Shown in pieces: positions 6,686 to 41,873 of a DNA stretch of 41,873 bases. A program made the position numbers and the translations under genes. Numbering within the stretch: position 1 is the stretch's first letter; every line of letters starts with the position of its first letter. The stretch spans positions 1-41,873 of the forward strand of contig JACIYF010000012.1 of assembly GCA_014360065.1 (NCBI GenBank), written 5' to 3'. The notes below the pieces were generated by a model. The model was not told the origin of the DNA. It was given only the letters and a program-made list of their open reading frames with translations, and ran no database searches. The DNA comes from Clostridia bacterium. GTDB lineage: Bacteria; Bacillota; DSM-521; Neomoorellales; JACIYF01.

Positions 6686-6690
6686 GTAAT

Positions 6691-9738: not shown

Positions 9739-9753
9739 CCATTGCCTCCACAC

Positions 9754-9783: not shown

Positions 9784-9813
9784 CTCCAACTGGAGGCGGG
9801 GGATAGAGATTGT

Positions 9814-11274
9814 CTAATGGAAAGCTTGGATTAGATTACCCTGGGAATCGTACACCCGGATTTGCCAGGGCAATTCACCCGTAATGGCATGGGTAGCACA
9901 GCTGAAACAAGGATCGTAGGCCCGAAAAGCCATCTCCACCATATTAAGGATGCCCTGGGTAATTTGGATGCCAGGTTTGATGAGGCTCTGGGCCGCTTTC
10001 TTAATAGCCATGTAAATGGGGGCGTGGTTGTTAGTAGTCCCCACGATCAAGTTGACCTTAGTCACTATGCCCCGGTCATCGGTCTGATAGTGATGAGTAA
10101 GCGTACCCCGCGGAGCTTCAACAATGCCTACGCCTTCGGTGGGAGCAGCGCTAGGTATGATCCTGATCTCAGGAGAAGTAATCTCCGGATCTCTGGCCAA
10201 CTCCAGCATCCGCTCGGCAGCATAGAGCAGCTCCACCAGGCGCGCCCAATGGGTAGCTAGGACTGCGTGGGCAGGCTTGCCTCCCAAAGTATAATACATT
10301 TTTTCGTAAGCCTCTTGAGCAAGGGGAGTAGCCATGCCTTCGGCCGCGTTTAAACGCGATAGAGGAGTAGCTTGATACACGCCGGTACCGGGGCCTTCCA
10401 CAAACCCCTTCCAGCCCAGCTTCTTCAAAAAAGGAAACTTCAAATATGACCATGGCTCCACATGTTCGCTTACGAATTCTAAGTATTGATTGGGTTCGTA
10501 CTTGAACAACTCCTTGCCCTCACAATCCACTACCCGTACCCGGCCGTCATAAAAGTTGACGCGGTTGTTGTCATCGACCAGACCCATGTAGTTGCTTACC
10601 AGCCGATAACCATCGCTTAGAATTAAATCTAAATAAGCCTTATTAGCCAAAACCACATCTTCAAACAGTTTAAGCGAAAACTGAGCAAACTGTACGCAGG
10701 ATTTGGCCATGGCCTCAATCTCCTGCCGCTCTTCTTCCTTAATGCCTTTGCTGACACCACCGGGCAGGTTCCATACTGGGTGGGTAGAGCGGCCGCTCAG
10801 GATAATCTGCGTCTTTTGGGCATAAGCCCGGTGCTTAATGACCTCTCCGCCGATGTCTAGCCCGACTTTGTTAATCACGCCCAAGACGTTCCGGTCACCT
10901 GGAGGGGCGTCAGGCCCTAGGACAAAGTCAGCGCTCGCCAACGCATAAAAATGAGCAATGTGGCTGTGTACGAAGTGAGCCGAATAAAATAGCTCGCGCA
11001 GCTTCTTGGCTGCTGGAGGTGGATCGGCATGGAAAACAGCATCAACGGCCTTACCCGAGGCCATGTGATGGGCACCGGGTCAGACGCCGCAGATGCGGGT
11101 TACAATCCGAGGGAGCTCCTCCACCGGTCTGCCCTCGCAAAACTTTTCAAACCCCCGTAGCTCGGGAATTTGAAAATATACATTTTCCACCCCACCCTCT
11201 GAGTCGAGGAAGATTTCTATCTTTCCGTGCCCCTCCAGACGGGTAATGGGGTCAATGGTCACCCGCTTGCTCAT
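9814..11274 (-). CDS. mvhA: [NiFe] hydrogenase large subunit MvhA type, putative selenoprotein (TGA read as Sec65)
   Basis: Catalytic subunit of an F420-non-reducing (group 3c-like) hydrogenase that splits H2 at a Ni-Fe centre. The frame reads MSKRVTIDPITRLEGHGKIE up to RICGV, meets TGA at 11080-11082, and continues PGAHHMASGKAVD to the C-terminal DPCFSCATH motif and a 24-residue tail of the sort removed on maturation. Without recoding, the gene is a 64-residue and a 416-residue piece. With TGA as selenocysteine it is 486 residues, normal for the family. The TGA replaces the second Cys of the N-terminal RxCGxC motif; the other three nickel ligands are Cys. A SECIS-like hairpin starts 9 nt downstream. 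The start ATG overlaps the mvhG stop. A nonsense mutation or base error is the alternative. Confidence 0.85.
11040..11082 (-). other. selenocysteine TGA codon with bacterial SECIS-like hairpin
   Basis: On the minus strand, TGA (11080-11082) is followed after 9 nt by CAUCA-C-AUGGCCU-[CGGGUA]-AGGCCGU-UGAUG (11070 down to 11040). This gives 12 base pairs, one U-G wobble among them, a single bulged C and a 6-nt loop with G at its second position. Bacterial SECIS elements lie in the coding region just after the TGA; known ones have a short GC-rich upper stem about 16-37 nt from the TGA and an early G in the loop. The 5-bp core GGCCU/AGGCC begins 17 nt after the TGA and fits. Confidence 0.72.
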
Positions 11275-12230
11275 CAGACTCGCGCCCTCCTTAATAGCGA
11301 TGTGGGAAGACCAAAACGGTAGAAAGTTCCAGCTGGGTCGACGATGCCATCGATGATCCTTGCCACTTCCTCGGGATCGTTGCTATCAATGATCGAGCCG
11401 AGGGCACTAATGATCTTAGCCCCTTGCTCCACAATATTTGGTGCTGGTCCATAACAGCCCCGGCACGGCATATTGGTGTTAGGACACCTTACCCCGCAAC
11501 CACCACGCGTGACCGAGCCCAAGCAAATGATCCCTTGTTCCAATAAACAACGGTCGGGATCGGGGATGATCTGGTAGGGCCGGTAGAACTGCTTAATCTT
11601 CTTTTCCTCCTTGCGACGCTTACATTCATCGCAAACCGTCTTCTCTGAGGCTCCAACTACCGACCCAGCAGGAGGTAGATTGCCAGAAGCAATAGCTTCA
11701 ACCACATTCCAAATTTGTTCCGGTGCGGGAGGACAGCCAGGCACATAGTATTCCACTTTTACTACGTCACCCAACGCGCGTACCCTATCGTAGAACTCGG
11801 GTAGGGTTAGCACGCCCTCGGGGACAGAAACCTGGGTCTGAGGCAATATGCAGTCAGGGTTATCGGTAGAAGGAGTCTCGATAAAAACTCGCTCCAAAAT
11901 TGATTCTCGAGTAGTAAAGTTGGCCAGCCCGGGTATGCCCCCCATCATTGCACAAGAACCAAATGCTACCATAATCTTGCTCTTCTGTCTTAGAAGTTTA
12001 GCTATATGCTCATTTTCCGAGTTGCGGATGGCGCCATTGAAAAGGCATACATCAATGGATCCATCCTCCACAGCCTCAACGTCACTGTACTTGAAGTCCA
12101 TAGCTATTGGCCACAATACAATATCGGCTATGGCAGCAATATCAAGTATTTTCTCGTTGACATCCAAAACCGCTACGTCGCACCCGCCACAGGCTGCTGC
12201 CCAGTACAGGGCTAGCTTAAGCTTCGCCAC
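11274..12230 (-). CDS. mvhG: [NiFe] hydrogenase small subunit, MvhG type
   Basis: A 318-residue iron-sulfur subunit that carries electrons from the Ni-Fe site to MvhD. The N-terminal YWAAACGGCDVAVLD provides the proximal-cluster cysteines, followed by FNGAIRNSENEH and AFGSCAMMGGIPGLAN. Further clusters are suggested by VPGCPPAPEQIWNV, CDECKRRK and GCGVRCPNTNMPCRGCYGP. There is no Tat signal or membrane anchor, so the enzyme is cytoplasmic, as expected for group 3. The GTG start has GAGGTGA upstream and lies inside the end of mvhD. The stop overlaps the mvhA start (TGATG). Confidence 0.93.
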   Translation of the reverse strand: MAKLKLALYWAAACGGCDVAVLDVNEKILDIAAIADIVLWPIAMDFKYSDVEAVEDGSIDVCLFNGAIRNSENEHIAKLLRQKSKIMVAFGSCAMMGGIPGLANFTTRESILERVFIETPSTDNPDCILPQTQVSVPEGVLTLPEFYDRVRALGDVVKVEYYVPGCPPAPEQIWNVVEAIASGNLPPAGSVVGASEKTVCDECKRRKEEKKIKQFYRPYQIIPDPDRCLLEQGIICLGSVTRGGCGVRCPNTNMPCRGCYGPAPNIVEQGAKIISALGSIIDSNDPEEVARIIDGIVDPAGTFYRFGLPTSLLRRARV

Positions 12231-12660
12231 CGGCGCTCACCTCCTTGCCGGCAGCGCGAAATGGACCGAGGGCTCTTACCTTCTCGGTCATGTCTGTAAC
12301 TACCTGAGCAAAGATATTGCCCTCAGCTGCCGACACCCACTCTAACCGTACCCGATCTCTTTCTACACCCAGCTGCTCAAGCACTCTCATCATTAAGGGA
12401 AAGCGCCTGAGGGTATTGTAGTTGCCGTGGTTATAATGGCAATCCCCTGGGTGACAGCCAGCAATAAGCACGCCATCGGCTCCTTCGCTCAAAGCTTTAA
12501 ATACGAACGCAGGCTCGACCCTTCCCGAACACATTACCCGAATTACCCGCAGGTTGGGCGGGTACTGCAGCCGGCTAATGCCTGCCAGGTCAGCACCCGC
12601 ATAGCTGCACCAGTTGCACAGGAACCCGACAATTCTTGGTTCGAATTGCTGTTCTGTCAT
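12217..12660 (-). CDS. mvhD: MvhD electron-transfer subunit (complete Cys set)
   Basis: A 147-residue [2Fe-2S] protein that links a hydrogenase or formate dehydrogenase to HdrA. All expected cysteine motifs are present: FLCNWCSYAGADLAG, RVMCSGRV, and LIAGCHPGDCHY, followed by VSAAEG. The start chosen is the ATG at 12658-12660, with AGAGAGGTG upstream. It lies between the giant hdrA (34-nt gap) and mvhG (overlap), the order that fits a direct HdrA-MvhD-MvhG electron path. Confidence 0.93.
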   Translation of the reverse strand: MTEQQFEPRIVGFLCNWCSYAGADLAGISRLQYPPNLRVIRVMCSGRVEPAFVFKALSEGADGVLIAGCHPGDCHYNHGNYNTLRRFPLMMRVLEQLGVERDRVRLEWVSAAEGNIFAQVVTDMTEKVRALGPFRAAGKEVSAGGEA

Positions 12661-12694
12661 GTTTAATCCCACACCTCTCTCCTCGCCGATGCCA

Positions 12695-15600
12695 TTAGGC
12701 GCTTAATAAGGCTTCGATTTGGTTCATGATTTGTTCTGTCTTGAAGCCTCTGGCCGTGTTGGCGCCAGAGGGGCAGGCTGCGCTGCAAGTACCACATCCC
12801 TTACACAGAGCTTCATTAACTACTGCTACTTCCCTCTCAGGGTCAAAAGTAATGGCATTGTAGGAGCAAATGCCCACGCATACTTTGCAGCCAGCGCACA
12901 GGTTTTCATCGATGGAGGCTACGATGCCCTCGGCGGTAATCTGGTCCTTTACCAATACGGTAGTCGCCCGGGAGGCCGCTGCCTTGGCTTGAGCAATGCT
13001 TTCGGAAATTGATTTAGGTGAATGAGCCAGCCCCGCCAGGAACACTCCGTCAGTAGCAAAATCTACCGGGCGAAGCTTCACGTGCGCCTCCAGGAAGAAA
13101 CCATCTTCGTTTAAAGGTACCTTGAAGAATTGAGCCAATTCATGCCTTCCATCGGCGGGGATGATAGCCGTAGCTAACGCTACCATGTCAGCCTCAATAA
13201 TTAGGGGTTGGCCCAAGATCTGATCCTGCAGGGATACTTTAATTCGACCGCTGCTAGCATCGGCAGTCAGTTGAGGCTTGTGGTCGGGCTCATAGCGGAG
13301 AAATACCACTCCTTGGTCACGAGCCTGGCGGTAGTAATCCTCTTTGAACCCGTAGGTTCGAATATCCCGGTACAGGATGTAGATATTGAGATCCGGATTT
13401 ATTTGTTTTAGGGCGAGGGCGTTCTTAATTGACTGAGTACAACAGATTCGGCTACAGTATGGCCGCTCTTCATCCCTCGAACCTACGCATTGGATCATGA
13501 CGATATCCTTTAACTTACTTAGGTTGGGGTCAGCGGTAGCAATCCGTCGTTCCAGCTCCCGGCCGGTAAGAACCTGGGGATGCTGTCCGTACAGGTACTC
13601 CTGGGGCTGGTACTCCATGCCTCCAGTGGCAATTATAGCCACACCATGCTCAATCTCATGGGTAAGGCCAGTGCAACGATTTTTGAGCACCGTCTTATAA
13701 TTGCCTACAAACCCGGAAACGTCAGCGATCTCTGTCTCCATAAGTACAGTGATCCGGGGATCCTTCTTAACTGCTTGAATTAAACCTTTTAGATAGGCCT
13801 GGACATCGTCCCCCTCAACCGTGTAGTAAATATGGCGCGCCTGGCCGCCCAGTTCGCTGGTCCTTTCGACTAGAACAACTTCGTAACCTTGCTGGGATAG
13901 GGTCAAAGCGCTGGTCAGTCCCGCTACTCCTCCCCCTACTACCAGAGCTTTCCTGGTCAAGCCCACAGCCAGCTGCGACAACGGCTCAATTAAGCGCGCT
14001 TTAGCTACTGCCGAGCGCACCAAATCTTTGGCTTTGGCGGTAGCAGCTTCTTTTTCGTGCATGTGAACCCAGGAGCATTGGTCGCGGATGTTGGCCATCT
14101 CAAACAGATAGCGGTTGAGGCCGGCTTCTTTGATGGTTTCCTGGAACATGGGCTCGTGGGTGCGGGGCGAGCAAGAAGCTACCACGACCCGGTTTAAGTT
14201 GTACTCCTTGATCTTTTCCTTGATTTTTTCCTGAGTATCCTGGGAACAGGTATATAGGTTTTCATCGGCAAACACCACATCCGGAAGAGTGGCCGCATAT
14301 TCCTTCACCGCTGGAACGTCCACGACACCACCAATGTTAATGCCGCAATGGCACACGAAGACTCCAATCCGCGGCTCTTGCCCCCGTACATCGATTTCTG
14401 GCGGGTAAGTTTTTTCCTTGGTCAGGGTCTTACGCACTGGAGCCAACATAGCCGAAGCACTGCCAGCCGCAGCGCTGGCTTGCATCACCGTTTCCGGAAT
14501 ATCCTTTGGTCCGCTGAAGGCTCCACAGACAAAGACTCCGGGTCGGGAAGTCTCGACTGGGTTAAAAGTTTCTGTCGCGCAGAAATCATAATGATTGAGC
14601 TGGATGCCAAGCAAGTCAGCTAGTTGGTGGGAGCCATGGGAGGGCCTAAGACCCACTGATAGCACCACCAGGTCAAACTGCTCTTGAGCCACCTGGCCAT
14701 CCTCGGTGGTGTACTTTACCAACAAGCTCTGGTCGGGCAGCTCTTCTACCTCGTAGACTTTAGAGCGAACAAAATTGATCTTATGCTCCTCTTGTGCGCG
14801 GGCGTAATACTTATCGAAATCTTTACCGTAAGTACGCATATCCATAAAGAAGATAGTGGCATCCATTGGTTCAGCAGCATGTTCCTTAGCAATTATGGCC
14901 TCTTTTATGGCGTAAGTGCAGCATACCGAGGAGCAATAACCGCATCCTATCTTTTCATCTCGTGAACCAATGCATTGGATCCACGCCACCTTATGAGGGT
15001 GTTTGCGATCCGAAGGGCGACATAGCTCTCCTTGGTATGGACCAGAAGCGCTCAGTATCCGTTCGAACTCAATGCTGGAAACCACGTTTTTGTACTTGCG
15101 GTAGCCATAAGGAACAAGTAGACTAGGGTCAAACTCATCAAAGCCTGGACATAGCACTATGGCCCCCACATTGACCTCCAGCAACTCATCTTGCATCTCA
15201 TGGTCAATAGCTTTGGCCTTGCAAGCTTCAATGCACTGCAGGCATTCAGAACAGGTACCACAGCTTAGGCACCTTTTCGCCTCTCGGCGAGCTGCTTCTT
15301 CGCTAAAACCAAGATTGACTTCATCAAAGCCCGTCTTGGCCTTTTCTACCGGAAGCGCAGGCATGACTTCCCGGGCTTGCTTGGGACGCCATAAAGGCAG
15401 CTCATCCAAATCCGGTTCCAGCTTCAAATCTGGCTTGGACAAGGGCCGGTTGGCCAATAGGTCCTCCCCTCGTAGGTAGCGCGCAATAGAAATGGCTGCC
15501 TCTCTTCCCGCCGCTACCGCCTCTATAGCTATGGATGGCCCGGTCACAGCATCGCCGCCAGCAAAAACCCCAGGCCGAGAAGTAGCTTTGGTAACTGGAT

Positions 15601-17140
15601 CGACTACTATGGTCCCTTTAGCTATATCGATACCACTATTCTCAAGACAATCCAACTGGGAAGCCTGGCCGATGGCTGGAATTACCATATCTACAACTAC
15701 TTCAAATTCAGAATCGGGTATAGCAACCGGCCGACGGCGACCAGAGGCATCGAGGGCTCCTAATTGCATGCGAACAAGGCGCAGGCCACACACTTTGCCG
15801 TTGTCAGTTAATACCTCCACCGGGGCCACCAAGTATTCAATCTTAATGCCTTCCTCCAAGGCCGCTTCAATTTCTTCCTCAGCGGCTGGCATCTCCTTTT
15901 TGGTACGCCGGTAAAGGATGGTTACTTCCTCTGCTCCTAAGCGAACTGCTGATCTAGCCGCATCGATGGCTACGTTGCCGCCACCGATAACAGCAACCTT
16001 TTTACCTACAGTAACTGGTCTCCCCAAGTTAAGCTCGCGCAAAAAATCAACCCCGTGGCATACGCCCTCTGCTTCCTCACCGGGAATGTTGAGCTTCTGG
16101 CTGCGGTGGGCCCCCAACCCCAGAAAGACAGCTTTATACCCTTGGGCAAATAAATCGTCAATGGTGAGATCGGGCCCGAGCGGGGTATTGGTCCTGATCT
16201 CAGCTCCTAATCTGGTAATATACTCTATCTCCCGATTCAGGACTTCCCGGGGCAGTCGGTAGGCAGGTATCCCCACCGCCAGCATACCACCAGCTACCGG
16301 CAAAGCCTCAAAGATGGTGGACCGGTAACCTTCTAAGGCCAAGTAATACGCGCAACTGAGGCCTGCCGGACCAGAGCCGATAATAGCTACTTTTTCTTGA
16401 CGGTACTCGATCTCTGGAACTGGAAGCTGGCCTACCTGGTCAGCCGCAAAGCGCTTAAGGCCAGCAATAGAAATCGGGTTCTCGATATAGGTACGCTTAC
16501 ACTTATCCTCACAAGGGTGAGGGCAAATCCGCCCAATTATGCCCGGAATAGGAATATGGCGCATGATTAGTTCTAGCGCTTCCCTATACTTTCCTTGCCC
16601 AATCAAAGCTACGTATCCCTGAACGTGGCATCCGGCCGGACAAGTGAGGCTGCAGGGCCGCTTCTGGTTATATTTTTCAATAGCAAACACATTAGGAAAG
16701 GCCTGCGGGAAAGGGCGGTAGATAGCCTTGCGCATAACCTGGCCCTCGTCAAATTCACTAGGTACTTCCACCGGGCAGACTTCCGCACATTGCGCACAAC
16801 CGGTACACTTGGTAGGGTCAATGTAACGGGAGCGTTTACGGATACTAACGCTGAAGTTTCCTGGTTCGCCTTCTACCTTTACAACATCAGCATAGGTAAT
16901 GGTTTCAATATTTAGATGACGGCCACATTCAACTAACTTGGGCGCCAGTATGCACATAGCGCAATCGTTGGTGGGAAAGGTTTTATCCAGCTGAGTCATA
17001 ACTCCACCGATGGAGGGTGACCTCTCTACTAAGTAAACGTAGTATCCTGATTCGGCCAAGTCTAGAGAAGCCTGGATCCCGGCAATGCCACCTCCTATAA
17101 CCAAGACTGCTCCTACTTGGCCATTGGCTTCTGTAGCCAC
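12695..17140 (-). CDS. hdrA: giant HdrA: HdrA with GltD-like insertion, fused to a second HdrA-like unit
   Basis: About 1481 residues. Order: a FAD motif (VLVIGGGIAGIQ) and HdrA cysteines (TNDCAMC); a ferredoxin motif CTGCAQCAEVC; from about 155 to 625 an inserted NADPH-glutamate-synthase-beta-like module (CPAGCHVQGY, VAIIGSGPAGLSCAYYLA, AVIGGGNVAIDAARSA, YRRTKKEMPA, GVFAGGDAV); the rest of HdrA with cluster motifs CGTCSECLQCIEAC and CIGSRDEKIGCGYCSSVCC; from about 920 a second unit (GVFVCHCGINIGG, VVASCSPRTHEPMF, a second FAD motif VVGGGVAGLTSA, CVGSRDEERPYCSRICC); and two C-terminal 4Fe-4S motifs (CAGCKVCVGIC, CKGCGTCSAACP). HdrA flavins bifurcate electrons in known complexes. Both GTG 17140 and TTG 17143 follow AGGAGG; GTG is preferred. 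Confidence 0.93.
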   Translation of the reverse strand: MATEANGQVGAVLVIGGGIAGIQASLDLAESGYYVYLVERSPSIGGVMTQLDKTFPTNDCAMCILAPKLVECGRHLNIETITYADVVKVEGEPGNFSVSIRKRSRYIDPTKCTGCAQCAEVCPVEVPSEFDEGQVMRKAIYRPFPQAFPNVFAIEKYNQKRPCSLTCPAGCHVQGYVALIGQGKYREALELIMRHIPIPGIIGRICPHPCEDKCKRTYIENPISIAGLKRFAADQVGQLPVPEIEYRQEKVAIIGSGPAGLSCAYYLALEGYRSTIFEALPVAGGMLAVGIPAYRLPREVLNREIEYITRLGAEIRTNTPLGPDLTIDDLFAQGYKAVFLGLGAHRSQKLNIPGEEAEGVCHGVDFLRELNLGRPVTVGKKVAVIGGGNVAIDAARSAVRLGAEEVTILYRRTKKEMPAAEEEIEAALEEGIKIEYLVAPVEVLTDNGKVCGLRLVRMQLGALDASGRRRPVAIPDSEFEVVVDMVIPAIGQASQLDCLENSGIDIAKGTIVVDPVTKATSRPGVFAGGDAVTGPSIAIEAVAAGREAAISIARYLRGEDLLANRPLSKPDLKLEPDLDELPLWRPKQAREVMPALPVEKAKTGFDEVNLGFSEEAARREAKRCLSCGTCSECLQCIEACKAKAIDHEMQDELLEVNVGAIVLCPGFDEFDPSLLVPYGYRKYKNVVSSIEFERILSASGPYQGELCRPSDRKHPHKVAWIQCIGSRDEKIGCGYCSSVCCTYAIKEAIIAKEHAAEPMDATIFFMDMRTYGKDFDKYYARAQEEHKINFVRSKVYEVEELPDQSLLVKYTTEDGQVAQEQFDLVVLSVGLRPSHGSHQLADLLGIQLNHYDFCATETFNPVETSRPGVFVCGAFSGPKDIPETVMQASAAAGSASAMLAPVRKTLTKEKTYPPEIDVRGQEPRIGVFVCHCGINIGGVVDVPAVKEYAATLPDVVFADENLYTCSQDTQEKIKEKIKEYNLNRVVVASCSPRTHEPMFQETIKEAGLNRYLFEMANIRDQCSWVHMHEKEAATAKAKDLVRSAVAKARLIEPLSQLAVGLTRKALVVGGGVAGLTSALTLSQQGYEVVLVERTSELGGQARHIYYTVEGDDVQAYLKGLIQAVKKDPRITVLMETEIADVSGFVGNYKTVLKNRCTGLTHEIEHGVAIIATGGMEYQPQEYLYGQHPQVLTGRELERRIATADPNLSKLKDIVMIQCVGSRDEERPYCSRICCTQSIKNALALKQINPDLNIYILYRDIRTYGFKEDYYRQARDQGVVFLRYEPDHKPQLTADASSGRIKVSLQDQILGQPLIIEADMVALATAIIPADGRHELAQFFKVPLNEDGFFLEAHVKLRPVDFATDGVFLAGLAHSPKSISESIAQAKAAASRATTVLVKDQITAEGIVASIDENLCAGCKVCVGICSYNAITFDPEREVAVVNEALCKGCGTCSAACPSGANTARGFKTEQIMNQIEALLSA

Positions 17141-17197
17141 CAAATGGTTACCTCCTTTCACCTGGCCCCTACCGGTTGCTTGTGAGTAAAAGCTTCT

Positions 17198-17662
17198 TTA
17201 CTTGGCCAAGACTTGCTGCACCAATTTATCAGGATCGAGGGCAAAATCATGCTGCCGCTGATCTACTACTGCCATTACCAGCTTCCGGCGAATCTCCTGG
17301 GCCAGCTTATCTAGAACTCTGACCTTGGCCTCGAAAGATTTATGAACGTATCCTTGGTCTACCGCCATAGCCCGCAAAGCCCCCATAACATCAGAGAACT
17401 TAACGTTTTGGGGGCAATGAGCGGTACAAGTGTTGCAAGAGATACAGAGCCAAATGGTATCGGAACCCAGTACTTCCTCCCGCATTCCTAAAAGTATCTT
17501 CCGGATGATCTGACGAGGATTGTAACGGTCGTCAATTTCTGAAACAGGACAACCGGCTGTACATACGCCACAAGCGAAGCAATACTTGATGTTTTCCCCT
17601 CCTGGGTGATTGGCTACTTCGTATTTAAATTTTGGGTCCAAAGCGCTCAAAGCAACTTGCAT
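17198..17662 (-). CDS. hdrC: HdrC-like 4Fe-4S subunit
   Basis: A 154-residue protein with two cubane-cluster motifs, CFACGVCTAGCP and CISCNTCTAHCP, in the spacing of heterodisulfide reductase subunit C, which wires HdrA to its partner. It has no transmembrane segment. The ATG at 17660-17662 follows GGAGGTGTAAGC; a longer frame reaching into metF has no ribosome site. HdrB, the usual partner with CCG motifs, is not encoded anywhere in the window. HdrC may here pass electrons to MetV/MetF (inference). Confidence 0.92.
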   Translation of the reverse strand: MQVALSALDPKFKYEVANHPGGENIKYCFACGVCTAGCPVSEIDDRYNPRQIIRKILLGMREEVLGSDTIWLCISCNTCTAHCPQNVKFSDVMGALRAMAVDQGYVHKSFEAKVRVLDKLAQEIRRKLVMAVVDQRQHDFALDPDKLVQQVLAK

Positions 17663-17678
17663 GCTTACACCTCCAGAA

Positions 17679-18602
17679 TTAGAGTTGCGGCCGCGGGTAT
17701 AAGCCGGCCCGCTGGACAATAGTAGGAACAATTTCTTCCCACTCGATGGCCATCAGGTGAATCCCGTGTACGCCCTCTATCTGTCGCAGTTGTTCGATGG
17801 TCTCAACGCAGATATTTATCCCTTCTTCTCTAGCCTTGTCTTTTCCAGCTACACGCATCCGGTTGATGATTTCATCTGGGACATCCATCCCGGCTACACT
17901 TTCCTTCATGTACCGAGCCATACCTACCGACTTTAGGGGCGTGACACCGGCCAGGATATGAGTTCTCTCATGTAACCCGCGATCGCGAACCATTTCCATC
18001 CACTTAGCGAATTTCTGAACGTTAAAAATACACTGGGTCTGAATGAAGTCCGCCCCGGCTGCCACCTTCTTGGCAAGACGAAGTACGCGAAATTCAAAGG
18101 GATCGGCAAAGGGATTGGCAGCTGCCCCAATGAATAGAGCTGGCCTACCCTCAATATCAGTCCCGGCAGCGGTTTTGCCTTCATCCCGCATAGTTTTTAC
18201 AATCTGGAGAAACTGAATGGAATCTACATCAAATACGTTCTTTGCCGTAGGGTGATTCCCGAACCTTTGGTGGTCCCCGGTAAGGCATAGTAAGTTCTTG
18301 ATCCCCAATGCACATGCTCCGAAGATATCGCTTTGTAAAGCTATCCGATTCCGGTCTCGGGTAGTCATCTGCATAGTTGGCTCAAGACCCAACTGGCTCA
18401 AAAGGACGCAACTGGCCAGGCTCGACATGCGAACAATTGAGGTTTGATTATCGGTTACATTAACCGCATCTACGTAACCCTTTAGGTATCCAGCCTTCCG
18501 CTCAATGACCTTTCGGTCTGCACCTTGGGGAGGGCCACATTCAGCAGTCACTGCAAAGTGACCTGCTGCTAATACTTTTTCAAGGTTACTTCCTGCTTTC
18601 AT
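17679..18602 (-). CDS. metF: methylene-THF reductase catalytic subunit MetF
   Basis: A 307-residue TIM-barrel flavoprotein that reduces 5,10-methylene-THF to 5-methyl-THF in the methyl branch of the Wood-Ljungdahl pathway. Family segments are AECGPPQGAD, NVTDNQTSIVRMS, MQMTTRDRNR, NLLCLTGDH, GADFIQTQCIFN and ILAGVTPLKS. The start ATG overlaps the metV stop by 4 nt (ATGA at 18599-18602), so translation is coupled. The MetF-MetV pair is the acetogen-type reductase that takes electrons from iron-sulfur partners rather than directly from NADPH. Confidence 0.95.
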   Translation of the reverse strand: MKAGSNLEKVLAAGHFAVTAECGPPQGADRKVIERKAGYLKGYVDAVNVTDNQTSIVRMSSLASCVLLSQLGLEPTMQMTTRDRNRIALQSDIFGACALGIKNLLCLTGDHQRFGNHPTAKNVFDVDSIQFLQIVKTMRDEGKTAAGTDIEGRPALFIGAAANPFADPFEFRVLRLAKKVAAGADFIQTQCIFNVQKFAKWMEMVRDRGLHERTHILAGVTPLKSVGMARYMKESVAGMDVPDEIINRMRVAGKDKAREEGINICVETIEQLRQIEGVHGIHLMAIEWEEIVPTIVQRAGLYPRPQL

Positions 18603-19267
18603 AGGCGTAAATCTCCCCTATCTATCCTCCGTGGACCACCATCGCGGTTAGTCGACCAATCCTTAGGAGGCAGGATTTCCTCAAGCTTGTTAAGTTGCCC
18701 CAAGGTTTTCAAGCGGTCATAGATTAGTTGCCAGCCACAATCGATAGTAGGATCAATCTCGCATTTACCGTTTTGCGAGCCACCGCAAGGACCATTGAGC
18801 AGGCTCTTGGAGCAGCGGGCTATGGGACAGATACCTCCAGTACGATCCAGAATGCAATTTCCGCAAGCGGCGCACCGCTCTGACCAAACCCCTTGTTCTT
18901 CAGGGATACCTATAAAGGAAGTGTTTAGTCCTGGATATACTGGAAGACCAGCGAAGATTTCGGCGATGGTCTGAACGCCGGCCCCGCATCCCAATGAGAC
19001 TATAGCTTCTACTTCTCTAGCCTCGGCTTCTAGCTCTCTCACCATTTCTTTTTCACATTGGCGAATGATGGTTTTCTCAACCACTTTTAGGTTTTGGTTT
19101 TGGCGAAGGGCTATAAGCTCAAGGCTAGAAGCCAAGATACCGACCTCTTTTTCGCCTCCAGCAAGGCAAACCGTAACACAGGTACCGCATCCCACCACTA
19201 GCAGTCTTTGATGTTGTGAAACCATTTGCCAGATTTCGGCCAGAGGTTTCCGTTCGCCAACGATCAC
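18599..19267 (-). CDS. metV: MetV, zinc/Fe-S subunit of methylene-THF reductase
   Basis: A 222-residue protein of the MTHFR C-terminal-domain family (MetV), which partners MetF in acetogens. It is cysteine-rich: VGCGTCVTVCLAGG, SLGCGAGVQ, CAACGNCILDRTGGICPIARC, NGPCGGSQNGKCEI. These residues should hold Fe-S or zinc centres that feed the MetF flavin. The start is the GTG at 19265-19267, overlapping the preceding stop as GTGA and preceded by GAGGGGGT. A longer frame would run into mvhD2. Confidence 0.93.
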   Translation of the reverse strand: MIVGERKPLAEIWQMVSQHQRLLVVGCGTCVTVCLAGGEKEVGILASSLELIALRQNQNLKVVEKTIIRQCEKEMVRELEAEAREVEAIVSLGCGAGVQTIAEIFAGLPVYPGLNTSFIGIPEEQGVWSERCAACGNCILDRTGGICPIARCSKSLLNGPCGGSQNGKCEIDPTIDCGWQLIYDRLKTLGQLNKLEEILPPKDWSTNRDGGPRRIDRGDLRL

Positions 19268-19680
19268 TTTGCTACCCCCTCTGCCTGAGATACTCGGCCT
19301 CGGCAAGGACCTAAAGCGCGGACAGTATCCAACATTTCCTTTATCACATCTGCAGCTTGCGGTACCATCATGGAGGCTAAAGCAGCCATTTCCAGGCGCT
19401 CCTTCTCTATGCCAATTTCTTCCAAGAGTCTTTGAGCGTATTCTACCCGCTGTCTAGCCCGAACATTGCCGGTAAGATCCTGGCAGCTACCTTCTGGGCA
19501 AGCCAACACCAAAACTCCGTCCGCACCATCTCGAAAGGCCCTTAGGAGATCGCGCACTTCCACCCGTCCAGAGCAAGGAACGCGAACAATGTTGACCTCA
19601 CTCGGGTCGAGCAATCCCGTTATTACCGCCTGATCGGTAGCCAGGTAGGCTGATCGAAAACAGGCAAATGCTGTGATCAC
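19264..19680 (-). CDS. divergent MvhD-like protein
   Basis: A 138-residue MvhD homologue. It keeps RVPCSGRV and LACPEGSC, but the N-terminal CNWCSYAGAD segment has become CFRSAYLATD, losing one cysteine of the pair, and the histidines of GCHPGDCHY are gone. Its [2Fe-2S] site may be altered or lost. The GTG start overlaps the upstream stop (GTGA at 19677-19680), with GGAGG 7 nt before it. It lies between an HdrA-like half protein and metV, so it probably joins those two (inference). Confidence 0.85.
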   Translation of the reverse strand: MITAFACFRSAYLATDQAVITGLLDPSEVNIVRVPCSGRVEVRDLLRAFRDGADGVLVLACPEGSCQDLTGNVRARQRVEYAQRLLEEIGIEKERLEMAALASMMVPQAADVIKEMLDTVRALGPCRGRVSQAEGVAK

Positions 19681-21275
19681 TTCCACCCCTCCCCCAGTTG
19701 CAGTTGTACTGCCATCTGTGCATCGGTAAAGCCGTTCAGTTGTAATGCTTTCCCGGGGCATTCGGCAGCACAAATGCCACAGCCCTGACAGGATAAATCG
19801 TCAACGTAGGGAGCACGGCGTATGGGATCGATGCTAATGGCCCGGTGTGGACAGCTGCGAATGCAGGTCAGACAGAGCGCACACTTCTCAGCCTCTATAG
19901 CTACCTTTCCACTTAATACCCAAGTCTTCCCACCACTGAGCAACGAGGCGGCGCTTTCTGCCGCTTGCCGAGCGTCAGCCAAGCTTTCCTCCAATTCTTG
20001 CTCCCAACGGCACAGGCCCGCATAGAATATGCCAGGCCGGTTGGACAAAACTGGGTAGAGGTGAACGTTAGCATCCTGGAGCCAGCCCTCAGGGCTAATG
20101 GTAAGTCCAGCTTCCCGGGCTATTTCTCGAATTGATGGTCCTACCGCTAGTTCCTGCTCCACCACTAATAAATCGCAGGCAAGGCTAACTGGCTGGCCAC
20201 CTAAGTAGATATCGTTGACGACGATCTCCACTTGTACCCCACAGAGTTTTACTGACGGGTTATCCCTAAATTTAAAGAAAATAACACCTTGGTCTCGGGC
20301 CTGTCGATACAGGCCTTCCCATTCACGGCCATCAACCTTTACATTGCGGCAAAGAATATAGGCTTCGCTAGCCCAATTCTTTTTACAAGCGAGCGCACCC
20401 TCAACCGCCATGTGGCTTGCTAACCGCGACTCCTGAGCTAAATCGACAAGAAACCCTACTCGCCTAAACTTTTCCGAGGAAGTAGCTAGGATCCGGGGTA
20501 GCTGCCAAAGGCCAATGACCTGGGGAGGGGAAAAGTAGGGCGGAGTCTGAGGCTCGACCCCACTAGCTATAATGATGGCTCCCGCATTAACGATAGAGGT
20601 TTGCCCGCCTTTCTTCACCGAGATTGCAAAATGGCCAGCTTGTCCTTTAATTGCAAGTAATTCTGTGCCAGTTGAAACCGTAATCCGGGGCTGTTGTACC
20701 AGCTCTTGCAGCTTTTTGGTTAGTACTTCCGGATAGAGCTCTGAACCACGCCTTCCCAACTCCTTTTCCTTTTCTATCAGGGTTACCCTCAACCCCAGCT
20801 GGGCCGCGGTTAAGGCTGCTTCAATACCGGTAAGGCCGCCTCCTATTATCGCCACCGCCGGCTCTACTGAGACTGCCTTTTCCGGTAGAGGTACCAGCAA
20901 TGCAGCCTTCCTGACTGCGGCCAACACCTCGCGAGCAGCCCTCTGGGTGGCTTCTTCTCCGAAGCAACGTTCCCTCAGAGCAGCCATGGCCATAAGTTGA
21001 GGATCAAAGCCAAAGTCCCGGAGCGCCTCCATGAAAGTCTCCTCATGGAAACTAGGAGAGCAACCAGCAATTACCACCCGGTTTAAGCCCTGTTCTTTTA
21101 TAGCCCTGCCTATGCTTACCCGGCCCTCGGCCAAGCATAGAGCGCTGTCCACTTGCGAGTAAGACACCCCGGGAAAAGTGTTGACTTGGGTCAACAGCTT
21201 TTGAAAATCTATTCGTTTTGCCAAAGCCCCGCCACATTTACACAAAAATACCCCGATTTTCAAGTTCTCGTTCAC
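19677..21275 (-). CDS. HdrA-like protein, C-terminal-half type
   Basis: A 532-residue protein collinear with the second unit of the giant HdrA: KIGVFLCKCGGAL, VVIAGCSPSFHEETF, a FAD motif AIIGGGLTGIEAALTA, and two C-terminal 4Fe-4S motifs (CALCLTCIRSCP, CQGCGICAAECP). The central CVGSRDE...CC cluster motif of that unit is missing here (the aligned stretch reads FLVDLAQES), so it is simplified. The start chosen is the GTG at 21273-21275 with AGGAG 8 nt upstream. It follows the N-terminal-half gene by about 50 nt. Confidence 0.88.
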   Translation of the reverse strand: MNENLKIGVFLCKCGGALAKRIDFQKLLTQVNTFPGVSYSQVDSALCLAEGRVSIGRAIKEQGLNRVVIAGCSPSFHEETFMEALRDFGFDPQLMAMAALRERCFGEEATQRAAREVLAAVRKAALLVPLPEKAVSVEPAVAIIGGGLTGIEAALTAAQLGLRVTLIEKEKELGRRGSELYPEVLTKKLQELVQQPRITVSTGTELLAIKGQAGHFAISVKKGGQTSIVNAGAIIIASGVEPQTPPYFSPPQVIGLWQLPRILATSSEKFRRVGFLVDLAQESRLASHMAVEGALACKKNWASEAYILCRNVKVDGREWEGLYRQARDQGVIFFKFRDNPSVKLCGVQVEIVVNDIYLGGQPVSLACDLLVVEQELAVGPSIREIAREAGLTISPEGWLQDANVHLYPVLSNRPGIFYAGLCRWEQELEESLADARQAAESAASLLSGGKTWVLSGKVAIEAEKCALCLTCIRSCPHRAISIDPIRRAPYVDDLSCQGCGICAAECPGKALQLNGFTDAQMAVQLQLGEGWK

Positions 21276-21326
21276 AGCCCTCACTCCTAAATTAGCGTAT
21301 AACCTGACCAGATGCTCAGGCTAGAC

Positions 21327-22634
21327 CTAACTGCAAAGCGCTGCTTTTACCTTCCCTGCTGCTTCCAAGCCTTGAGCTAACGACCCAGCTATATCCTTGG
21401 GTCCTTGGCAAGCACCAGCTATGAACACTCCCCGGCGGTTGGTAACACATGCGTCCTGGGATCGGCCGGCAAAGAAACCGTAGCGATCTAAGCTGATGCC
21501 TAACATCCTAGCCAGCTCAACATTTCCTTCTCCAGGTAGAATACCAGTAGATAAAATAATGAGATCAAAAGCAGTGTGGGCAAGCTGGCCTTTGGCAATA
21601 TCTTCATAGCGAACTAGTAGCTTACCGTTGTCACCGCGGAAAATTTCCATTGGTAGCCCGTGAACGAAGGCCATGCTCTCGCGACACTCTTGGTACAGTT
21701 CCCAAAATGCCTTGCCAGCCGATTGGATATCCATATGAAAAATAGTAATTTCTACTTCCTGATTCTGGCTTTTAAGTAGCCTGGCAATCCGCAGGGCGTA
21801 TTTACAGCAAACCTGGGAACAATACCCCCGGTTACTTTGGGCATTTCTGGAACCAACGCATTGAATGAACGCCACCTTTTGAGGGATGCCACCATTGGCT
21901 AAGCGGAGGGTACCGGTACGTCGGATAAGCGATTCAGCATCCTTACCAGAAAGGACATTGGTAAACCGCTGGTAACCCCAACCTCCCCCTTGGCGAAGAT
22001 CGTAATGGGAAAAACCAGTGGCAGCTATTATCGCTCCAACATTTAGGACCATTGTTTCGGGCTGCCGGCTGAAACTTAATGCCCCAACCGGGCAAGAATC
22101 AACGCAAAGGCTACAAGGTTCACCGTGGTATAACTGGCAACGGTTCCGAGCTAGCGTATAAGTTGGCTTGCTGCCCGCAGTCACGCTCGTTTCTATTGCC
22201 TGGCTAGGACAACCCCTGGCGCATTCGCCGCAGGCTATGCACTTATGGGGGTCAATCGGCGGAAGATGACGGGTTAGATAAACCGTAAAGTTACCTACTT
22301 CTCCGATTATTCTTGCCACTGAGGCAGAATTATACACCGTAACTCGAGGCTGGGTTCTGGTTTCGATTGCTTTTTTGGGGACTAAACACACGCCGCAACG
22401 GCTGCAATTCTCAGTCGCCTTGCAACAATAATCTAGAGCCTTTCCGCCCAGAGTTTCGGCTTTATCAACCAAGTAAACATAAAAGCCGCTACGGGCTAAT
22501 TCTACCGCGGAACTCATGCCGGCTATGCCTCCACCTATGACCAGCACCTTGTCTTTAATCAAGCTTTCAACCTCCCGGGCATAGAGTTGGTGTATTTCAT
22601 CCCCACAAGTTCCCAACTTCACGTTTGGCCACAA
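21327..22634 (-). CDS. HdrA-like protein, N-terminal-half type
   Basis: A 435-residue flavoprotein matching the first unit of HdrA without the GltD-like insertion. It has VLVIGGGIAGMSSAVELARSG, a cysteine cluster CCKATENCSRCGVC, ferredoxin motifs CIACGECARGCP and CSLCVDSCPVG, and CVGSRNAQSNRGYCSQVCC, ending GVFIAGACQGPKDI. Here the HdrA cysteine segment has extra cysteines compared with TNDCAMC. It starts at TTG after GGGAGGT and is the first gene of the ten-gene operon. Together with the next gene it makes a split version of the giant HdrA. Confidence 0.88.
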   Translation of the reverse strand: MWPNVKLGTCGDEIHQLYAREVESLIKDKVLVIGGGIAGMSSAVELARSGFYVYLVDKAETLGGKALDYCCKATENCSRCGVCLVPKKAIETRTQPRVTVYNSASVARIIGEVGNFTVYLTRHLPPIDPHKCIACGECARGCPSQAIETSVTAGSKPTYTLARNRCQLYHGEPCSLCVDSCPVGALSFSRQPETMVLNVGAIIAATGFSHYDLRQGGGWGYQRFTNVLSGKDAESLIRRTGTLRLANGGIPQKVAFIQCVGSRNAQSNRGYCSQVCCKYALRIARLLKSQNQEVEITIFHMDIQSAGKAFWELYQECRESMAFVHGLPMEIFRGDNGKLLVRYEDIAKGQLAHTAFDLIILSTGILPGEGNVELARMLGISLDRYGFFAGRSQDACVTNRRGVFIAGACQGPKDIAGSLAQGLEAAGKVKAALCS

Positions 22635-37893: not shown

Positions 37894-37897
37894 CGCA

Positions 37898-38286
37898 GAG
37901 CGAGCAAACCTGTAAGCCGAGTTCTGTCGTGAGTGATCATCTATCTAGGGTGCCAGTTGCCTGACACCTCAAGCGACCAACCCGGGAACAGAGCGGGCCA
38001 CTCTATGGTTCCCCTATTTGGTCTTGCTCCAGGTGGGGTTTGCCTAGCCGGCGGATTACTCGCGCCGCTGGTGAGCTCTTACCTCACCTTTTCACCCTTG
38101 CCTATGACTCGGATCCGGCGCCACTACGCCAACGTCGACCGAATCAGGCGGTATGTTTCTGTGGCACTCTCCTTGGGGTCACCCCCACTGGGCGTTACCC
38201 AGCACCTTGCCCTATGGAGCTCGGACTTTCCTCAGGCGCACCGATGATCAAATCGGTACCCCCGCGACCACTCGGTTTGCTCATCA
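37898..38286 (-). ncRNA. rnpB: RNase P RNA (bacterial class A)
   Basis: About 390 nt. On the minus strand it contains the conserved core GAGGAAAGTCCGAGCTCC, CAGAAACATACCGCC, GGTAAGAGCTCACCAG, and near the 3' end ACTCGGCTTACAG. The first helix pairs AGCAAACC near the 5' end (around 38281) with GGTTTGCT near 37901-37910. This is the catalytic RNA that trims tRNA 5' leaders. Ends are approximate. Confidence 0.96.
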
Positions 38287-38820: not shown

Positions 38821-39951
38821 TTAGACAGTCCGTACGGGATCGGCGTTGGTGTGGCCGACAAAGGTGAAAACCGGAACATCCATGTTAATGTCTCGGAAGT
38901 AGCGACGTAAATAGTCAGCCACCGCTGGGACTACAGGTTCTTCCGTAGCCTGATGTCCAGCATCTATAACCGCCAACCCTTGAGCGTCAGCATCCAAGGC
39001 CTCATGATACTTGATGTCTCCCGTAATTAGCACATCGGCACCCTTAGCCACCGCGCTGTCAACTACAGTACCTCCCGAACCCCCACAGACGGCAACTCGC
39101 TTCACCCTGAGATCTAGATCCCCCACTACCCTTACTGTGGGTACTAGGTAGCGCTCCTTAACTTGATCAACCAAATCACTCAGAGAAATGGGTTCGGGAA
39201 GGTTGCCAATCATACCCAACCCCCATGGCATCCCCTCATTGGCAAGGGGATACAAGTCATAAGCTACTTCTTCGTAAGGGTGAGCCTTAAGCATGGCTTC
39301 AACGACAGTCTGTGATTTTCTTTTGGGAACTATAGTCTCCAGCCGTAATTCGTCCGTCTTTTCCAACTGACCGATTTCCCCTTGAAAAGGATTAGAACCT
39401 TCCAGCGGCATGAAAGTCCCCGTCCCTGCGCTCTGAAAGGTACAGAAGGAATAGTTCCCTATCCAGCCCGCTCCCACCTTACCCATGGCTTCCCTAACTA
39501 CATCCTCGTAGCCCCGGGGCACAAAGACTACCAGTTTGTAATATTCATCACGCCCACGTACATCCAAGACCTGCATCCCTTGTAAACCTAGGAGCTGGCC
39601 TAACTGATAATTTACACCTTGAGGGGCAAAATCGAGATTGGTATGGGCTACTATAACGTTCATCCTATGGCTGACTAGCTCACGAATCACTTTACCTATC
39701 GGACGATCATACTGAAGTCTGCGCAGCGGGCGGAAGATCACCGGGTGATGAGCTACAATAAGGTTGGCGCCTCTTTTGCGAGCCTCATTTATGGAAGCAA
39801 AATCGACATTAAGCGTTACAAGTATTGCATCCACACTGGACTCGGCATTGCCAATCTGAAGACCAACGTTGTCCCACTCTTCTGCCCAGGCAAAGGGAGC
39901 CATTTCCTCCAACAAACTGAGCACTACATTACAAGTGATTTCCCTGGCCAA
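38821..39951 (-). CDS. Nif3/DUF34 dinuclear-metal protein
   Basis: A 376-residue protein of the NIF3/YqfO family, hexamers with a two-metal site. Metal ligands lie in IVAHHPVIF (two His), AHTNLDFA (His, Asp) and the C-terminal FVGHTNAD with DAGHQATEEP. The middle (about 130-235, YKLVVFVPRGYEDVV, AHPYEEVAYDLYPL) is the PII-like insertion of the long form. Its activity is debated; the label GTP cyclohydrolase I type 2 should be used with care. It starts at TTG after AAAGGGG. Confidence 0.92.
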   Translation of the reverse strand: MAREITCNVVLSLLEEMAPFAWAEEWDNVGLQIGNAESSVDAILVTLNVDFASINEARKRGANLIVAHHPVIFRPLRRLQYDRPIGKVIRELVSHRMNVIVAHTNLDFAPQGVNYQLGQLLGLQGMQVLDVRGRDEYYKLVVFVPRGYEDVVREAMGKVGAGWIGNYSFCTFQSAGTGTFMPLEGSNPFQGEIGQLEKTDELRLETIVPKRKSQTVVEAMLKAHPYEEVAYDLYPLANEGMPWGLGMIGNLPEPISLSDLVDQVKERYLVPTVRVVGDLDLRVKRVAVCGGSGGTVVDSAVAKGADVLITGDIKYHEALDADAQGLAVIDAGHQATEEPVVPAVADYLRRYFRDINMDVPVFTFVGHTNADPVRTV

Positions 39952-40180
39952 CCCTATACCCCTTTCGTCAGGTTGAATTAATCATCAACCTTTACTATCT
40001 CCCGGCCCTCACCATTTATCCCTTGCCAAGCCTAACGTTTTCCAACAGGTTTTGGAATTTGTAGCAGTATCATATTTCTAGTTCCCTCAAGCAAATCCTT
40101 TAAAGCTAATTAATCAAGACTGTTTTGATAATTTGGCAGTGAGAACAACCTGCGAAGGGTAAGTGGCACGTTATTACAGA

Positions 40181-40207
40181 AAGAAAATTCCTCCCCGCAG
40201 GGAGGAA
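40181..40207 (-). terminator. terminator, probably of the original tRNA-Val gene
   Basis: On the minus strand TTCCTCCC-TGCG-GGGAGGAA is followed by TTTTCTTTC. It lies 40 nt past the CCA end of the tRNA-Val fragment. Bases 39952-40180 show no gene. Confidence 0.8.
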
Positions 40208-40247
40208 AAGACCAGCACAAACGCTCCCAGGAAGCCTTTTCAATCCA

Positions 40248-40294
40248 TGGTGGGCGATAGTAGATTCGAACTACTGACCCCCTGCTTGTAAGGC
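40248..40294 (-). pseudogene. 3' fragment of tRNA-Val(TAC), attachment-site scar
   Basis: On the minus strand the sequence runs from GCCTTACAAG (anticodon loop CTTACAA, anticodon TAC) through a variable loop, a T-arm AGTAG-TTCGAAT-CTACT, to ATCGCCCACCA. The D-arm, 5' acceptor strand and 5' half of the anticodon stem are missing: GCAGG has no CCTGC partner. A tRNA cut at the anticodon loop with its own terminator downstream is the usual mark of tyrosine-recombinase integration. The intact gene should lie at the other end of the element, to the right. Confidence 0.85.
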
Positions 40295-40418
40295 TCATGG
40301 CAGCTTTTTCATTGCTTTCCGCTCCATGCCAAATGGCTTGATTCTATTAGCTTCTAGCGATTCCAACTTTCAACTGAATACCCGTCAATTTGGCCTATTT
40401 TGGGTGCTACTGCATCCG

Positions 40419-41138
40419 CTATTGCATCATACTCGGAACCTGGAGAGCCTGATTTTTCTTGTTTCGGCGGTGCCAAGCCAACTTGCAGGCGGTGCTACAG
40501 AATATCCTTCTGCCGAATCTCTCAAAGGGAACCCCACAAAAGCGGCATTGGATAACCGGACGGGAGTCGGCTATTATCTGCCACAAATCGTAAAGGACAG
40601 CCGCAAGCAGGTAGGGCGTTGCCCTGGTCTCCACAAGCCCAGGTGGTTTATCGGTGGCAACGAAGTCCAACCTGATGCCGTCCTGAAGCCCGCGCTTGAG
40701 ATAGGTTGCCAGCATCATGGCCTGCCTGTCGCTGTCGGGGGGCGCTATCCTGCCTTCCGCAAGCTGGCAGTAAAGCACCATCTGGCGGCGAACGGCATCT
40801 ATGAAATACTGCCACAAATCCAGCGGTTCAAAGAGGGTATCCCTGTCATAGCGCCAATTACCCATATCCTGGCCCGGAGGGACCGAGACCCCCAAAAGCC
40901 CGTTGGCCCTGGCGAATGCGTCAATCTGCCTTTCTTTCTTGAGCCCGGCAAAGCGGGAGGCCAAGCCCCTTACTTCCGGCTGGACCGGAGGCCGGGAAAT
41001 GTCAAGCAGGATGACTGCATCATACCGAAGCATGGCCTGGATTGTTGCAGAACCGAAGTAGCCCTTTTCTTCACTGGTGAACTCATAGGCACGCGGGCAG
41101 ATTATCTTTGCCGGAAGCCGTTGGTCAACAACCAGCAT
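40419..41138 (-). CDS. hypothetical protein with C-terminal zinc finger
   Basis: A 239-residue protein of no family I can name. The last 40 residues form a zinc-finger pattern: CRFCGVPFERFGRRIFCSTA then CKLAWHRRNKK, i.e. C-x2-C, then C-x3-C and a basic tail. The first 195 residues are mixed alpha/beta. Such tails bind DNA or RNA, but no function is claimed. The ATG at 41136-41138 follows GAAGAGGG and a consensus-like promoter. The plus strand of this region also has an open frame; the zinc motif and promoter favour the minus strand. It is cargo of the element. Confidence 0.75.
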   Translation of the reverse strand: MLVVDQRLPAKIICPRAYEFTSEEKGYFGSATIQAMLRYDAVILLDISRPPVQPEVRGLASRFAGLKKERQIDAFARANGLLGVSVPPGQDMGNWRYDRDTLFEPLDLWQYFIDAVRRQMVLYCQLAEGRIAPPDSDRQAMMLATYLKRGLQDGIRLDFVATDKPPGLVETRATPYLLAAVLYDLWQIIADSRPVIQCRFCGVPFERFGRRIFCSTACKLAWHRRNKKNQALQVPSMMQ

Positions 41139-41187
41139 CAAAAACCCTCTTCCGTGATACTAAATTTTTGCCAAGTGCTCCATGCAA

Positions 41188-41216
41188 AGTATCCCTCTTA
41201 TTACGGGCATTGTCAA
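41188..41216 (-). promoter_or_regulatory. sigma-A promoter of the zinc-finger gene
   Basis: On the minus strand, a perfect TTGACA (41211-41216), 17-nt spacer, GATACT (41188-41193), about 45 nt before the start codon. Confidence 0.7.
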
Positions 41217-41359
41217 GCACAGATTGCTAAAAATTTATATGCAACAAATTACAGGTAGCGTATCTGGAAACGAAAAAGAGCCATCTAGGTGTTGTCTTGC
41301 GTAGCACGAACGAATATCATTGATTTAGAGAACAAAACAAAAGGGGGAGGTAAAAGAAA

Positions 41360-41554
41360 ATGGCCGTGCCTGTAGAAAAAGTGAGGGCGTTTGATTGGGG
41401 AGAAGTACCACTCGTTCTTACGATTGAGGATTTGCAAAGAGCCTTGGGTATTCCAAGGCATCAGGCTTATGCCCTCGCACATCGGGTTGGAAAAAAATTG
41501 GGGAAACGTTTGTTGGTTGCGCGCGAGAGCCTGCGGCGTTTCCTCGAAAGCTGA
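41360..41554 (+). CDS. small excisionase-like HTH protein
   Basis: A 64-residue protein with a winged-helix/MerR-like fold typical of excisionase-family DNA binders: LTIEDLQRALGIPRHQAYAL, RVGKKLGKRLLVARESLRRFL. Such proteins direct excision or regulate replication genes in integrative elements. GGGGGAGG lies 9 nt before the ATG. The primase-polymerase gene follows 78 nt later. Confidence 0.85.
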   Translation: MAVPVEKVRAFDWGEVPLVLTIEDLQRALGIPRHQAYALAHRVGKKLGKRLLVARESLRRFLES

Positions 41555-41632
41555 AATCCGGCAGAAAAAAACCACCTAGGCGGAAGGAGGAAGAGGCCCA
41601 AAAACAATTTACACCCGAGGTGGTAATAAACT

Positions 41633-41873
41633 ATGAAGATAAGTTCTGAAGCAAGTGTACCACAAGTAGCCTTCGAGTACCAGAGACAAGGCTTTGCAGT
41701 AATTCCTGTCAGTCGCGATAAGAAACCCCTTATTCCCTGGCAGGAATTTCAACATCGCAAGCCGGCACCCCAGGAGATAGCCGCATGGTGGAAGCGGTGG
41801 CCCAAGGCCAATGTAGCCATTGTGACCGGCGCTATTTCCGGCATAATAGTCCTAGATGTTGATGGTGCGGAGG
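41633..41873 (+). CDS. bifunctional DNA primase/polymerase, N-terminal part (cut by window end)
   Basis: The first 80 residues of a phage/plasmid-type prim-pol. The segment YQRQGFAVIPVSRDKKPLIP and WWKRWPKANVAIVTGAISG lead to the catalytic acidic motif IIVLDVDG. The ATG follows GAGGTGG. Such proteins prime and copy the DNA of mobile elements. The rest lies beyond the window, so it is partial and not shown to be truncated in the genome. Confidence 0.85.
   Translation, partial: MKISSEASVPQVAFEYQRQGFAVIPVSRDKKPLIPWQEFQHRKPAPQEIAAWWKRWPKANVAIVTGAISGIIVLDVDGAE

Follow-up and report, generated by a model that had tools for sequence, protein, structure and literature searches.

A 47-nt piece of a tRNA-Val(TAC) gene near the right-hand end of the window (the whole stretch of 41,873 nucleotides analysed here) is, at a probability we put at roughly 0.93, the attR scar of an integrative element of about 7.8 kb, E1, that occupies tRNA-Val(TAC) and has its partner ends on two contigs of one genome, C92 and C12. 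The initial annotation, made from the window's letters alone, had predicted an intact tRNA-Val with the same 3' sequence and an integrase at the far end. Because the window is the whole of contig C12, one of 242 in the genome, and ends at 41873, 1.6 kb to the right of the scar, the search for that far end was extended to the genome's other contigs. Both predicted genes were found there, side by side on C92. At the level of sequence comparison, integration of E1 is demonstrated by the intact tRNA with its integrase, the identical 45-bp fragment at the far end, the proximity of the two flanks in relatives, and the tRNA that results when the flanks are joined. The orphan-looking scar is thereby resolved: the island is real, small, and split by assembly. 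The integration mechanism is of the ordinary textbook kind, while the element and its setting are moderately interesting.

The scar and its surroundings

The scar, GCCTTACAAGCAGGGGGTCAGTAGTTCGAATCTACTATCGCCCACCA, is the minus strand from 40294 to 40248. It contains the end of the anticodon stem, the loop CTTACAA, the T-arm, the 3' strand of the acceptor and CCA, and it starts two bases ahead of the anticodon loop. Its first description as the 3' part of a tRNA-Val(TAC) lacking the 5' half agrees with the minus-strand sequence and with ARAGORN, which finds no whole tRNA in the window. The longest exact match to tRNA-Val is 45 nt in the window, against a maximum of 14 nt across 20 simulated windows. 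The terminator said to accompany the fragment was recovered as well, as a terminator-like hairpin with a T-rich tail after the scar (40207-40188, minus strand), a pattern of which about two would be expected by chance in the stretch scanned. The features at this end of the window are these:

38821-39951, minus strand: Nif3-like gene (TIGR00486), the first chromosomal gene past the scar
40188-40207, minus strand: terminator-like hairpin, beyond the scar on its chromosomal side
40248-40294, minus strand: probable attR scar, the tRNA-Val(TAC) 3' part from anticodon arm to CCA, with the 45-bp att core at 40250-40294
40295-41873, no strand: probable right-hand (attR) end of E1, cut by the contig end
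40419-41141, minus strand: 240-aa ORF with a treble-clef/zinc-finger-like C-terminus, reading towards the scar
41360-41554, plus strand: 64-aa HTH_17 protein, candidate excisionase or regulator
41633-41873, plus strand: N-terminus (80 aa) of a Prim-Pol primase-polymerase whose gene runs off the contig

The fragment had been said to abut HTH and prim-pol genes; both genes are present, but the 240-aa ORF lies in between. The HTH_17 match has an E value of 1.2e-5, slightly below the family cut-off. The Prim-Pol N-terminus, which runs from 41633 to the contig end, matches PF09250 at 4.9e-17. A 310-aa ORF on the opposite strand (40326-41258), overlapping the 240-aa ORF, has no match in Pfam or PHROG. 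Farther into the chromosomal part of the window, Rfam identifies an ordinary RNase P RNA class A gene at 37897-38283 on the minus strand.

The far end and the proposed join between contigs

BLAST places the scar segment at three sites in the genome: C12 itself, C1:25056-25102 (47 of 47 bases) and C92:5227-5271 (45 of 45). The C92 copy belongs to an intact tRNA-Val(TAC) gene at 5199-5271, the last of a cluster Asn-Met-Glu-Val, and it is followed by a convergent gene for a 343-aa tyrosine integrase whose C-terminus points towards the tRNA (L004 5408-6439; Phage_integrase, E 4.2e-30). Between the C92 and C12 element ends, 45 bases are identical, and this identity stops two nucleotides 5' of the anticodon loop, which upholds the chromosomal boundary originally placed at about 40294. 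A crossover at or near the anticodon loop, as then proposed, is compatible with these ends, but the 45 identical bases permit no placement within them.

The two copies part company at their 3' ends. The intact tRNA on C92 ends in GCCCAC-AAGG, without CCA, whereas the scar retains CCCACCA, as do the tRNA-Val genes of three relatives (G055, G003, G005); that of a fourth, G001, also ends in CCA. It therefore seems that the 3' end without CCA was supplied by the element and that the old CCA end now lies in the scar. Joining the 5' side from C92 to the 3' side from C12 gives a complete tRNA-Val according to ARAGORN, which finds no complete tRNA in attR alone or attP alone.

Eight fetched stretches carrying the cluster Asn-Met-Glu-Val(TAC) were compared. 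Nif3 lies downstream of the cluster in three of them, which lack E1, at 56-58% identity to the window's gene in G055, 39% in G026 and 45% in G031, where it is about 2.8 kb on; in G055 a single ORF, a putative methyltransferase, separates tRNA-Val from Nif3. Two others (G005, G001) have an integrase directly after tRNA-Val, 39% and 42% identical to that of E1. Since the remaining three (G003, G054, G035) lack both Nif3 and an integrase over about 8 kb, the tRNA cluster-Nif3 gene order is not universal. One further candidate for the same hot spot, G053, was set aside: it has tRNAs for Pro, Glu, Asp and Thr.

These comparisons bear on the possibility that no mobile element is involved, the fragment being either a tRNA pseudogene in decay or a duplicate of part of a tRNA. 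The failure of ARAGORN to find a tRNA in the window would suit such an origin, but an exact match to the intact copy over all 45 bases, a sharp start next to the anticodon loop, the integrase at that intact copy and the gene order in relatives make it barely credible.

Identifying C92 and C12 as the two ends of one element, the reading we prefer, rests in part on how the contigs terminate. C12 ends within the Prim-Pol gene (80 aa visible), and C92 breaks off within a DUF3987-like protein, showing 139 aa of its C-terminal part and reading in a direction that matches C12. The sole other matches of these two module ends in the genome are on contig C5, at 60% and 96% identity, respectively.

The C5 region (6638-21695, L042/L043) holds two tandem elements at tRNA-Leu(CAG), each ending in a tRNA-Leu 3' fragment, and shows the same anatomy as E1 at tRNA-Val. 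An intact tRNA-Leu(CAG) and integrase are followed by a full element, F2 (9.9 kb), a 59-bp tRNA-Leu 3' fragment, an older element F1, and a 57-bp fragment. F2 contains terminase genes, a Prim-Pol and a DUF3987 protein that scores over the family cut-off; its terminase large subunit is split over two overlapping ORFs, and no capsid gene was found among the proteins scanned. F1 retains an integrase remnant and an IS110-type transposase. It also carries a MazF-like gene (L042 10301-10666; PHROG E 3.9e-16).

On C5 the matches to the two module ends lie 1,426 bp apart, so that E1 would measure about 7.8 kb (4,780 bases on C92, 1,579 on C12 and a gap of about 1.4 kb). The visible C-terminal part in E1 is 96% identical to that of F2, yet taken alone it falls below the DUF3987 cut-off. 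The missing Prim-Pol/DUF3987 piece is in none of the genome's contigs, and no contig spans C92 to C12; we infer a join through the unsequenced middle of this module because the contigs end in two halves of one gene module, a relative exists on C5, and the gene order recurs in other genomes. A more complex array may lie between the two ends. An exact repeat shared with C5 was considered as the cause of the assembly gap and rejected, the C92 and C12 ends being only 93-95% and about 71% like C5, respectively, over longer matches.

A regenerated tRNA together with a displaced fragment is the signature used by Islander, as set out in the available text of that work (PMC4383910). Like the tDNA islands described there, E1 has a regenerated tRNA, a displaced 3' fragment and a tyrosine integrase of its own. 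The ends of E1 lie on two contigs, and a search that requires tRNA and fragment on one replicon sequence would miss the element; the gene order in three of the eight relatives favours a single replicon for both ends, and the piece of about 1.4 kb between them is absent from the assembly.

In the mechanism that we propose, the attP of E1 would carry the 3' part of tRNA-Val(TAC), and its tyrosine integrase would recombine this site with the tRNA-Val that closes the chromosomal Asn-Met-Glu-Val cluster. The element's copy would then complete the tRNA at attL, on C92, and the gene's own 3' part, CCA and hairpin included, would be displaced to the far end, on C12, on the Nif3 side. Excision would presumably be aided by the HTH protein, and the excised circle would be replicated by Prim-Pol and the DUF3987 protein.

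Integrases and the phages of contig C1

Integrase matches with E values up to 1e-85 were found in 26 of 398 genomes of the phylum, this one included, with 28 matches outside it. Nineteen of the 28 were kept as loci, and in 15 of these a tRNA 3' end lies within 200 bp of the end of the match; one of the remaining loci has a tRNA 3' end at about 770 bp, and in three the stretch contains no tRNA. In a tree of 13 integrases, those of E1 and of phage A, one of two phage genomes on C1, are sisters (95/95), and the pair stands next to an integrase at tRNA-Val(CAC) of an Armatimonadetes MAG (92/94, below the starred level). The phage A branch is long. The integrase at tRNA-Val in G005 is also long-branched and is placed elsewhere, so that in this tree integrase site and ancestry are not in full agreement.

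C1 falls into a half A, from 1 to about 48.4 kb, and a half B. Eleven pieces match between them; most are colinear, with identities largely of 66-78%. The ends of the contig share 68 and 86 identical bases with the edges of a central 1.7-kb stretch, which is present whole once in the assembly; the overlaps point to a second copy between the ends of C1. Probably the assembler has joined two circular genomes here, or A and B form a single cointegrate. Ten phage A proteins were scanned, with matches to large terminase, portal, head, major head, tape measure, tail, endolysin, DnaB and integrase; one of the ten has mostly unknown-family matches. The six phage B proteins scanned have matches that include head morphogenesis, portal, minor tail and integrase. 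Beside the B integrase a tRNA-Ser-like 3' piece can be read in the sequence (L045 about 3836, C1 73835); its best match elsewhere in this genome, outside C1, is 86% over 59 bases, and the usual host of B may thus be another strain or species.

The tRNA-Val core of phage A (47-48 bp) lies beside A's integrase and has colinear phage sequence on both sides. Phage A is therefore apparently not integrated through this core, and the C1 copy looks like the unsplit attP of a tailed phage. The same facts have to be set against a tandem array at tRNA-Val, with phage A of C1 lying between E1 and the chromosome. An array of this kind would account for a C1 copy of the same 47-48 bp that stands beside an integrase and has different genes on the fragment's 5' side, and tandem arrays do occur in this genome at tRNA-Leu. 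We nonetheless regard it as highly improbable, given that the halves of C1 are colinear around the core (66-78% in most matched pieces), as an unsplit attP would be, and that the 5' side of the scar bears Prim-Pol, whose other end adjoins the tRNA on C92.

The att sequence that E1 shares with phage A implies that the two would compete for one tRNA-Val site. No prophage was observed in that site; G005 and G001 have integrases there. Apart from the integrase, no E1 protein matches phage A or B at E 0.01, and the case for phage A as a helper of E1 extends no further than the shared site and the integrase kinship. That said, a single genome here combines two related elements at two tRNA genes with a phage att site exactly matching the same tRNA-Val, a co-occurrence that makes competition between a small element and a phage for an attachment site directly testable.

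The chromosomal flank of the scar (window 40180-40247) bears some resemblance to integrase-side att flanks. When the post-scar sequence was compared with such flanks using 500 shuffles each, the similarity to phage A (reached by 79 shuffles), G005 (224) and G001 (108) was without distinction, and that to E1, F2, the F1/F2 junction, phage B and L053 was reached by 0-5 shuffles, as was the similarity to the empty sites of G055 and G003.

Small elements with a Prim-Pol/DUF3987 module

The DUF3987 protein of F2 is matched in 8 of 398 genomes, this one included. Regions from six of the other seven were fetched (G091 was left out), and in four of the six an integrase and a tRNA are accompanied, at the far end, by a displaced tRNA 3' fragment:

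G051: tRNA-Leu(TAA), fragment of 77 bp, about 7.8 kb
G392: tRNA-Leu(CAG), fragment of 21 bp (exact), about 8.7 kb
G353: tRNA-Pro(CGG), fragment of 53 bp, about 10.2 kb
G195: tRNA-Pro(CGG), fragment of 50 bp, about 9.2 kb

G069 is a 7.3-kb contig with no tRNA, and G104 has an integrase and no tRNA. L053, L055, L061 and L062, which are short stretches or run into a contig end, showed no displaced fragment.

The group is uneven. Pfam recognises DUF3987 in F2 and G195, while the proteins of G353, G392 and G104 are relatives of the F2 protein by sequence alone; G051 has a fused protein with Prim-Pol and no DUF3987 by Pfam, and in G392 no Prim-Pol domain is recognised in the 182-aa ORF at that place. 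The G051 integrase is of another type (23% identical to that of phage A) and has the opposite orientation. The 240-aa ORF beside the scar has positional counterparts in G051 (L075; weak similarity, E 2e-5) and in G392 (L076; similarity not significant). Only part of each element's ORFs was scanned; within that part, matches to terminase small subunits occur in G051 (1.7e-9), G353 (1.4e-7) and G195 (4.2e-6), with none in two small ORFs of G392.

In E1 itself, a 138-aa protein has no terminase match in Pfam, PHROG or NCBIfam. It is 46% identical to the F2 protein just upstream of F2's terminase large subunit, a counterpart that itself lacks any terminase match, and on this basis it is a tentative terminase-like candidate. 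An AlphaFold model of the protein (two sequences) has a mean pLDDT of 81 and a pTM of 0.50, and a fold search with it returned no PDB match at E 0.001. The small terminase of phage Sf6 comes fourth and seventh, at E 0.7-0.9, with unrelated proteins around it; a single viral match is significant, to an uncharacterised phage protein. Phage structural or lytic genes are absent from the ten E1 proteins scanned, with about 1.4 kb of the element unsequenced; likewise, no capsid gene was found among the proteins scanned in E1 and similar elements, and a PADLOC search with ten proteins of E1 and its family gave no match.

A tyrosine integrase, an HTH protein and Prim-Pol at a tRNA gene match the integration and replication modules of AICEs (actinobacterial ICEs), as presented in the accessible portion of PMC3218068, and E1 could accordingly replicate once excised and pass between cells by conjugation, as AICEs with Prim-Pol do, rather than by phage. 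The likeness extends to the replication gene adjacent to Prim-Pol. The scanned proteins tell a different story, however: Pfam detects no FtsK/SpoIIIE-like protein in ten proteins of E1 (about 1.4 kb of which is unseen) or in ten of F1/F2, a difference from AICEs as portrayed there, and relatives of E1 have terminase matches. Conjugative transfer is on this evidence unlikely.

Transfer of E1 by a helper phage is a guess, and its group of elements, little described, may ride with viruses of bacteria. We tentatively suggest, as a possibility that is more doubtful than probable, that E1, F2 and the four elements elsewhere form one undescribed family of phage satellites of 8-10 kb, with a tyrosine integrase, an HTH protein, a Prim-Pol and DUF3987-like module and a terminase subunit, in varied tRNA genes, and that E1 competes with phage A for the tRNA-Val site through integrases of common ancestry. 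A DUF3987 scan of viral contigs found no relative. A literature search gave no paper joining DUF3987, satellite, integrase and terminase, and the wider set of titles and abstract openings held no description of the group, which is not proof of novelty.

Judged against PICIs as described in the available sections of PMC6092414, E1 and its relatives are similar in their integrase, excisionase-like HTH, primase module, in some of them a terS gene, and lack of structural genes in the scanned part. E1 differs in size (about 8 kb versus about 15 kb) and in layout: its integrase lies at the opposite end from the HTH gene and reads in the direction of Prim-Pol, which departs from the PICI order, where integrase and regulator diverge from the xis-primase module. 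Its att core is common to a phage attP. PICI att sites are described as never occupied by prophages; phage A carries the same 48 bp as E1 beside its integrase, and no prophage was observed in the tRNA-Val site itself.

In replication genes E1 resembles the elements of PMC5862659, in whose available text 14 of 25 delimited elements lie in tRNA genes and archaeo-eukaryotic primases occur with DUF3987-type putative helicases. Both domains are present in the integrated elements studied here, Prim-Pol over its cut-off in E1 and DUF3987 over its cut-off in F2. As in those elements, E1 combines a primase with a DUF3987-like domain and is integrated by a recombinase; compared with what that text presents, the Prim-Pol and DUF3987 of F2 are adjacent ORFs, and terminase genes follow them.
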